Shown: positions 26,076-46,605 of the stretch, one piece after another
Numbering within the stretch: the first letter of the stretch is position 1
Layout of the letters: every line of letters starts with the position of its first letter
Assembly: GCA_028279705.1 (NCBI GenBank)
Contig: JANQNF010000078.1
Coordinates: 1-64,000 of the forward strand
Length of the DNA: 64,000 bases
Direction of reading: 5' to 3'
Source: an archaeon
Lineage (GTDB): Archaea; Aenigmatarchaeota; Aenigmatarchaeia; QMZP01; JAFGSV01
Position numbers and translations under genes: made by a program
Notes under the pieces: generated by a model
What the model was told of the DNA's origin: nothing
Database searches by the model: none
The model's input: only the letters and a program-made list of their open reading frames with translations

Positions 26076-26680
26076 ATGATGATACAAAACCTCAAAGATA
26101 TTATGAAAGACGAAGAAAAGCTTGCCGAAATCTGCGGTATACACGCAGGCGACGGGTGGCTCAGTTCATATAACAATGAGGTCGGTTATGGAACGTCTAT
26201 AAAGGAGGGATCGTACTTCAATTACGTCTTCTCAATTGCATCCAGAATAAGATCATGTCATTCGGTTTCCCGAGAGGGAGGAAAAATGACTTCCTAGATA
26301 TTCCTGATTTCATAAAAGGTGATAAAAGATTATTGAAAAGATTCATTCGAGGACTAGCAGACACTGACGGTAGTGCTCATTGGAGAAGAAGTGCTAGAAA
26401 TCATTACTTGTCAATAACATGGAATTGTACATCGAAAAAGTTCGCCGAGTCCATAAAGTCTGCCCTCATTACTTTGGGGTTCAAACCAAACATCTATCAA
26501 CACAAAAATAGAAAGGAACGCAACAGGAAAACTGTGTGGAAAGTCCAGCTCCAGAGAATTTCCGATGTTTCATGCTACGTAAGGGATATAGGATTCGGTA
26601 ATGAAAAACGTTTTAAAGACATATACTCGAGAAATGAATGGAAAAGGTATATGGGCCCGGCCGGATTTCCAAATGAATGA
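26076..26680 (+). pseudogene. Decayed LAGLIDADG homing endonuclease overlapping tRNA-Val
   Basis: Two frames together make a degraded LAGLIDADG protein. Frame one (26076-26297) has LAEICGIHAGDGWL (motif 1). Frame two, from about 26255, has SFGFPRGRKNDFLDIPDFI and LLKRFIRGLADTDGSAH (motif 2) and ends ...MGPAGFPNE. The joint lies near 26245-26255, and the spacing between motifs is shorter than in intact relatives, so a deletion plus frameshift is likely. Its last codons run through the 3' exon of the opposite-strand tRNA-Val, and its stop (26678-26680) falls inside the T-loop intron of that tRNA. Confidence 0.7.
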
Positions 26681-26792
26681 CAGTTAAACTGTCACAATTT
26701 TTTTGAACCGGCGATATTCACCGTTCTCACCTAGTGGTTGTGAGGGTTCCGCGCACGAATGCTTGACGTCATAGCCACTAGACCACGGGCCC
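26652..26792 (-). tRNA. tRNA-Val(CAC) with three predicted introns
   Basis: Acceptor GGGCCCG pairs with CGGGCCC, with discriminator A and no CCA. The A box TGGTCTAGTGG is clear. Removing three segments gives a perfect 73-nt tRNA: 17 nt in the anticodon stem (26747-26763, position 29/30, or one base earlier), 15 nt at the canonical 37/38 site (26724-26738), and 36 nt in the T-loop (26667-26702), which contains the perfect hairpin TGACAG-TTTAA-CTGTCA. The mature anticodon stem is TCACC/GGTGA with loop CTCACAC (anticodon CAC), and the T-arm is GCCGG-TTCAAAT-CCGGC. The intron borders are inferred from restoring the cloverleaf. Confidence 0.75.
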
Positions 26793-26828: not shown

Positions 26829-27125
26829 TCACACGGGCGGTGGAAGGAACCGTAAGAAGTTGGCGTAACCAAACAGCACCCAGGCCGCAATGAAGGTCAC
26901 TCCCATGACCGTCTTTCTTACAAGTGATATATTGTAATGGCCGTGTGGGTTTGCGTACTGGTGGTAAACGCTTTTGGAAAGGAACGGAACGTATATGAAG
27001 CCGATGACCATCACGAGTATGTAAGTCCCGGGGTTATCCATAAACCTCAGTCCTACTGTGTCTGCAAGGAAATAGTAAACTGTATTTATGGCCGTTATCA
27101 CGATCTGCAAAAGGTTTTCCAGCAT
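26829..27125 (-). CDS. Small integral membrane protein
   Basis: 98 residues with three probable membrane helices (about 5-24, 34-53 and 71-92). The hydrophilic loop LSKSVYHQYANPHGHYN lies between the second and third. No family recognised. It is 16 bases downstream of the Mth938-like gene on the same strand, so the two may be cotranscribed. Confidence 0.6.
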   Translation of the reverse strand: MLENLLQIVITAINTVYYFLADTVGLRFMDNPGTYILVMVIGFIYVPFLSKSVYHQYANPHGHYNISLVRKTVMGVTFIAAWVLFGYANFLRFLPPPV

Positions 27126-46387: not shown

Positions 46388-46605
46388 AACTTATAGCTCC
46401 GCTGCCAAATGGGCATTTGCCCGCACCACAGCTTCAGCATCGCTGTCGCTGTTGAATTTCATGGTGCACTTCTGCACGCTACAGCGGAGCGTGTAGTTCA
46501 AGCATGCTCCAGGCGTATCCTTGGATAACGCCTGCACTGATGCACAGCTGTCCGGGACAGCTAACCCCTAATAAAGGGGATAAGAAAATTAGTACAAGAA
46601 GAAAT
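46388..46605 (-). ncRNA. Structured non-coding region upstream of the TR
   Basis: 218 bases without a credible reading frame but with several strong hairpins: the perfect palindrome AGCTGTCC-G-GGACAGCT at 46544-46560, GGCGTATCC-TT-GGATAACGCC, CTACA-CGCTCCGC-TGTAG and CCCCT-AATA-AAGGGG. Position between target gene and TR suggests a structured leader of the TR RNA, possibly used for priming or Avd-RT binding (inference; in the Bordetella phage DGR the known structured part is on the other side of the TR). Confidence 0.45.

Follow-up and report, generated by a model that had tools for sequence, protein, structure and literature searches.

The 64,000-nucleotide stretch of archaeal DNA analysed here (the window) very probably holds a functional Aenigmatarchaeota gene for tRNA-Val(CAC), the three introns of which would be removed by an epsilon2 splicing endonuclease (EndA). 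The analysis shows the anatomy of the gene, its junction motifs, its uniqueness, its orthologues and the enzyme type encoded in the same genome; splicing, its order and the acting enzyme are inferred. The host, a tiny and uncultured archaeon, is represented by a DPANN genome bin (G000) of the Aenigmatarchaeota, 91.8% complete. Archaeal genes in the window include those for an IF2B/IF5-type domain, diphthamide synthase and the archaeal ThrRS editing domain, and the named relatives of the host EndA are nearly all Aenigmatarchaeota MAGs.

Structure of the tRNA-Val(CAC) gene

The gene occupies 141 nt of the minus strand (26652-26792; Table 1). Exact removal of the three introns restores a tRNA, as found with the solver, by folding and from intron-free orthologues; the product is a 73-nt cloverleaf, which unconstrained energy folding of the spliced 73-mer also returns (-34.2 kcal/mol). 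The solver knows only the tRNA template and the bulge-helix-bulge (BHB) motif; it proposes BHB introns and scores the spliced product. Run blind, it gave the same three introns as the top solution (score 46.5). The original prediction had proposed three introns of 17, 15 and 36 nt, two of them at non-canonical sites, and a 73-nt product. Sequence and solver confirm the lengths and the product exactly and place the introns at 29/30 and 59/60 (non-canonical) and 37/38 (canonical); the strand had not been given. The accompanying statement that all stems are paired holds for every stem pair except 13-22 of the D stem, which is U-U. Group I introns, recognized here by a catalytic core of at least about 200 nt and an Rfam match, do not fit, the introns being only 15-36 nt long and without a match in the Rfam search. 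Both ARAGORN and the Rfam tRNA model missed the gene, so it is easily overlooked.

Table 1. Coordinates of features at the tRNA-Val(CAC) locus (positions in the window)
Feature	Position	Strand	Basis or remark
LAGLIDADG endonuclease gene, opposite strand to tRNA-Val(CAC)	26076..26680	+	two frames, 26076-26297 and 26255-26680
Exon 4, tRNA positions 60-73	26652..26665	-	solver
Intron 3, 36 nt, site 59/60, T loop	26666..26701	-	sequence, solver, folding
Exon 3, tRNA positions 38-59	26702..26723	-	solver; spliced-query search
Intron 2, 15 nt, ACCACTAGGTGAGAA, canonical site 37/38	26724..26738	-	sequence and solver
Exon 2, tRNA positions 30-37, holds anticodon CAC	26739..26746	-	solver
Intron 1, 17 nt, AGCATTCGTGCGCGGAA, site 29/30, anticodon stem	26747..26763	-	sequence and solver
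Exon 1, tRNA positions 1-29	26764..26792	-	solver; exact match to spliced query
98-aa membrane protein gene, upstream of tRNA-Val(CAC)	26829..27125	-	marks the orthologous locus in G001-G005

Splicing motifs and predicted order of excision

Introns 2 and 3 each have a BHB motif with a 4-bp central helix and 3-nt bulges. For intron 2 the central helix is CUCA(32-35)/UGAG, the bulges are CA^A and AA^C, and helix B is CC/GG. For intron 3 the T stem forms helix A, followed by the central helix UUCA(54-57)/UGGA and the bulges AA^A and AA^U; this intron has a 7-bp hairpin of its own (UGACAGU-UUA-ACUGUCA). The motif of intron 1 is a relaxed version with helix A UGA(22-24)/UCA(33-35), central helix CGU(25-27)/GCG, a 3-nt bulge CA^A, a 3' bulge GAA^CCC and helix B GCA/UGC. 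Its weak points are the three central pairs only and the loose 3' bulge. The same plan was found in G004 (helix B ACCC/GGGU), G029 (CUGC/GCAG) and G023 (AUU/AAU), and one central pair changes from U-G to U-A in G029. Comparison with these three other genera supports the putative relaxed motif through covariation. Intron 2 has counterparts of 16 nt in G004 and 15 nt in G029.

The G000 sequence alone would allow the boundaries of introns 1 and 3 to shift by one to several bases. The intron-free genes of G003 (L155) and G005 (L152), with loops CTCACAC and TTC(A/G)AAT, fix the 37/38 boundary and the content of the T loop. Intron 1 is placed at 29/30 by the G004 sequence TCA^...GAT^CC, and intron 3 at 59/60 by its BHB helix. 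A complementarity between the D arm and intron 2 in the precursor fold (CUAGUGG/CCACUAG) is absent from G004 and G029 and was taken as chance.

In the proposed pathway, the precursor would fold so that every exon-intron junction lies in a BHB, strict or relaxed; the three-unit epsilon2 EndA, encoded on contig C35, would cut within the bulges, and the exons would then be joined by a ligase, expected to be RtcB, three times. The product would be a 73-nt tRNA decoding GUG. According to folding calculations, formation of the BHB in the full precursor costs about 2 kcal/mol for intron 3 or intron 1, and about 10 kcal/mol for intron 2. Once intron 1 has been removed, intron 2 costs about 2 kcal/mol; if intron 2 is removed first, intron 1 costs about 7 kcal/mol. 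These calculated costs suggest that intron 3 could be excised at any stage, and intron 1 ahead of intron 2. Intron 1 is found without intron 2 in G023, so the predicted order is no requirement.

Intron gain and loss at the orthologous locus

Six genomes of the family retain a Val(CAC) gene at this locus. The gene is intron-free in G003 and G005; G001 and G002 carry a 59/60 intron only (about 150 nt and about 70-85 nt, respectively), with sequences unrelated to intron 3 of G000; G004 has two introns, at 29/30 and 37/38; and the host bin has all three. A near-identical 29/30 intron was detected in an apparent tRNA-Gly(GCC) of G021, so that introns also move between tRNAs. Judged from these sequence comparisons, the introns of tRNA-Val(CAC) are recent, unstable gains, and intron turnover is rapid. 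A single syntenic locus with zero, one, two or three introns within one family is a clear natural record of how introns are gained and lost.

Mobile elements and a possible origin of the introns

The mechanism of archaeal tRNA intron gain was called unknown in a 2014 review (PMC4090602). It is possible, and we propose it tentatively, that tRNA introns of Aenigmatarchaeota are kept moving by a family of hairpin repeats, which would become BHB introns in tRNA genes and, it seems, in rRNA genes, and by co-homing free-standing LAGLIDADG genes next to tRNA genes, with intron 3 as a product of the latter.

The hairpin repeat (N1N2ACCCTTTT...AAAAGCGTN2'N1'ACGGAAAA) occurs order-wide and shows strong enrichment in many related genomes, among them G001 (36 against 2), G011 (27 against 0) and G019 (33 against 0). 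Its outer pairs covary, with eight dinucleotides represented, in 56 of 67 loosely matched copies. With a strict detector, 12 of the 52 sampled copies lie in tRNA introns; read from their flanks, copies are apparently present in rRNA genes as well. The Val(CAC) introns of G001 and G002 belong to this family, and degenerate copies were identified in two tRNA introns of G000 (C35:258264 and C70:42143). The three introns of the G000 tRNA-Val(CAC) gene are outside the family. Repeat loci were recorded as L256-L295 (G001, G003, G011, G021, G023). The distribution of Y1 transposases did not follow that of the repeat.

The LAGLIDADG gene facing the tRNA has its first motif in one frame and its second in the other. 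The gene ends within intron 3, where its stop codon lies, and its final codons run antisense to the 3' end of the tRNA gene. It is not an intron-encoded homing endonuclease: the ORF is antisense and mostly outside the intron, and only its end overlaps intron 3. Among the 11 free-standing LAGLIDADG_3 genes of G000, seven, this one included, abut or overlap tRNA genes, and the stop codons of several fall within tRNA sequence. In relatives, a detectable tRNA lies within 150 bp of nine of 40 LAGLIDADG genes, in eight cases at the 3' end of the gene; others are in or near rRNA genes. No tRNA is present in 81 kb of control loci, where the LAGLIDADG domains belong to long, mostly intein-like frames. 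Contacts are of two kinds, with the 5' end of a tRNA in the same direction or with the 3' end of a tRNA in antisense, and the last codons and stop are often tRNA sequence. Such loci were seen in G000 (window 26076-26680; L134, L135, L136, L141, L142, L144) and in relatives (L189, L190, L212, L214, L217, L218, L223, L224). The surroundings of the LAGLIDADG genes were searched for duplicated pieces of tRNA that would mark integration; there were none, bar one match to another tRNA near L142.

A free-standing LAGLIDADG gene of this kind would co-home with an intron that destroys its own target site: the enzyme would cut an intron-free tRNA gene, and repair would copy both gene and intron. For intron 3 this origin agrees with the position of the endonuclease stop, with the seven tRNA contacts in G000, and with the joint presence of gene and intron in G000. 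However, the LAGLIDADG frame is broken, there is no known cleavage site, and a tRNA-His that adjoins another such gene is yet intron-free. Neither element occurs at the locus in G003, G004 and G005, but G001 and G002 have 59/60 introns there with no LAGLIDADG gene noted beside them (their flanks were not scanned separately), so co-homing is only a possible source of intron 3 and a rather doubtful one. It concerns origin and is compatible with the splicing model.

Splicing endonucleases

The host bin encodes, in the same genome as the interrupted tRNA, a single-chain, three-unit epsilon2 EndA of 400 aa (P0001, contig C35). It is a full-length match to the ARMAN-2 enzyme (4fz2; E 1e-92), with residues 19-400 aligned to 19-387. 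Residues Y160/K161 of the ARMAN-specific loop and the catalytic Y236/H251/K282 are conserved in P0001 and 26 relatives. It has been reported that the ARMAN-2 EndA cleaves non-canonical introns (PMC4033280, PMC12397907), and by analogy P0001 is predicted to have broad cleavage specificity. It had been argued from the gene alone that an endonuclease of broad specificity would be needed, and inspection of the endonuclease type was proposed as a check; that inspection found such a type in epsilon2 EndA, its specificity being predicted from ARMAN-2. The (alpha-beta)2 EndA of Thermoproteales was not found in G000, where the only chains are one epsilon and one alpha, encoded on separate contigs.

The alpha chain is a second EndA (P0002, L031:1237-1800, contig C3). 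It has Ala at the position of the catalytic Lys156, keeps Tyr and His and, in G000, has no adjacent basic residue. We considered P0002 a dead paralogue within this order on account of the Lys156-to-Ala change; this claim was dropped because the replacement is class-wide in alpha-type EndA, also in genomes where alpha is the only EndA match, and is often accompanied by an adjacent Lys/Arg. P0002-type chains were detected in 18 of the 41 genomes searched and also across the class, and in this order often stand beside epsilon2. Their wide occurrence, together with an excess of 59/60-type matches over control, if less strong, in alpha-only members of the class, would fit excision of the introns by P0002, either by itself or jointly with epsilon2, instead of by epsilon2 only. 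We regard this as unlikely, since alpha4 enzymes cut only the canonical BHB (PMC4033280), P0002 has the Ala described above, and epsilon2 keeps all required residues.

The 59/60 pattern was counted at 3.6 matches per genome in the epsilon2 order (control 0.7) and at 1.4 outside it (control 0.6). It is enriched in this order but not confined to it, and a strict link of enzyme type to T-loop introns is therefore not supported. EndA architecture varies in the class, with fused chains of 364-372 aa in some genomes and two adjacent alpha-like genes in others (G060, G076, G085, G095 and G042, G048, G062, G075, G084, G096, G097). In G062 the T-loop-intron pattern was matched 12 times and the control never.

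Gene function and other tRNAs of the host

Another intact tRNA-Val(CAC) gene, which the original prediction had named, together with a lack of spliced reads from this one, as grounds for its rejection, was looked for in the bin with the tRNA model, by DNA search with the gene and by search with the spliced sequence, and none was found. A stretch of 18 nt on C35 is identical to part of the spliced sequence but is not a second CAC gene; it lies inside a coding gene that is glutamyl-tRNA-synthetase-like, as read from its translation. The valine tRNAs that these searches did detect elsewhere have the anticodons GAC (C35) and UAC (C3). The bin is incomplete and has at least one doubtful contig (C74), so another CAC gene could be missing from it. 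That contig, probably of bacterial or phage origin, carries 32 tRNA genes within 3.5 kb, among them a bacterial-type Arg(ACG) (G000:C74:144400-148200; L058). The size of the bin is 1.9 Mb, about twice that of bins of the same genus. Elsewhere in the window, positions 46388-46536 of the minus strand match the Rfam RT-16 RNA (60 bits).

An approximate hand count gives about 41 archaeal tRNA genes in the bin, about 25 of them interrupted. The solver finds three introns (26, 21 and 24 nt) in tRNA-Met(CAT) on C80, and two each in Ala(UGC) (contig C3) and Met(CAT) (contig C35). In tRNA-Phe (L031:1111-1213, C3; 28 nt) and tRNA-Asp (C35:46292; 32 nt) an intron interrupts the D arm. A probable tRNA-Trp(CCA) at C4:108.5 kb (L086) has a long intron with C/D-box-like stretches and a disrupted D arm; the solver gave no solution for it.

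In principle tRNA-Val(UAC) could also decode GUG through wobble, so the CAC gene need not be essential. The gene might then be a decaying pseudogene with insertions, as its three interruptions, its escape from ARAGORN and Rfam, and the broken LAGLIDADG frame over its 3' end would allow. We consider this very improbable: all stems pair except for U13-U22, the insertions are confined to BHB-compatible sites, the Val(CAC) locus is conserved in the six genomes of the family, no replacement CAC gene was found in the bin, and the same mode of interruption is seen in further essential tRNAs of G000, for instance Met(CAT). Chance, in the sense that three free cuts among the 803 candidate BHB introns within 141 nt would let almost any sequence yield a tRNA, is practically negligible, as the best score among 15 dinucleotide shuffles that retained the acceptor stem was 27.5 (mean 20) against 46.5, and it is refuted by orthologues with fewer introns that show the predicted features of the mature sequence.

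Relation to known systems and significance

Multiple introns in one tRNA are a known phenomenon. The view that such tRNAs are found mainly in Thermoproteales, taken in the original prediction, is dated, as they have been recorded in several other lineages, including ARMAN-1/2, Nanoarchaeum, Korarchaeum, Methanopyrus, Methanothermobacter and Caldiarchaeum (PMC4033280, PMC3293823). Many non-canonical introns have also been counted in Thaumarchaeota with tRNAscan-SE 2.0 (PMC8450103), and 29/30 and 59/60 are already listed archaeal intron sites (PMC4090602). The further statement that such genes are rare elsewhere fails for the Aenigmatarchaeota lineage, where tRNA-Met(CAT) on C80 of the same genome has three introns and 59/60 introns recur across the order.

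A close likeness described in the cited accounts is to ARMAN-1/2 (Micrarchaeota; Fujishima 2011, via PMC4033280 and PMC12397907), which are also DPANN and share several non-canonical introns per tRNA, relaxed BHB motifs and a three-unit epsilon2 EndA with the ARMAN-specific loop. As far as those accounts go, G000 differs in its phylum, in an extra alpha-type EndA gene and in having three introns in one tRNA. Thermoproteales (Sugahara 2008, via PMC4033280 and PMC8450103) have up to three introns per tRNA, introns at non-canonical positions and similar introns shared between tRNAs; their EndA is described there as (alpha-beta)2, whereas that of G000 is epsilon2. In tRNA-Thr(GGU) of Caldiarchaeum subterraneum one locus has one or two introns in close relatives, and intron gain has likewise been tied to mobile DNA (PMC3293823). 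An integrative element was proposed in that case, whereas in G000 the tRNA is abutted by a LAGLIDADG gene, and relatives contain a family of intron repeats.

No report of tRNA introns in Aenigmatarchaeota was found in the limited literature set searched, and within that set Aenigmatarchaeota is a new phylum for three-intron tRNAs. It is thus added to the lineages with such genes, here paired with an epsilon2 EndA. The adjacency of LAGLIDADG and tRNA genes and the hairpin repeat family may be more important than the three-intron gene. If the mobile-DNA reading is true, it would explain the gain of archaeal tRNA introns; the LAGLIDADG neighbours and the family of intron repeats make the spread of these introns testable at the bench.
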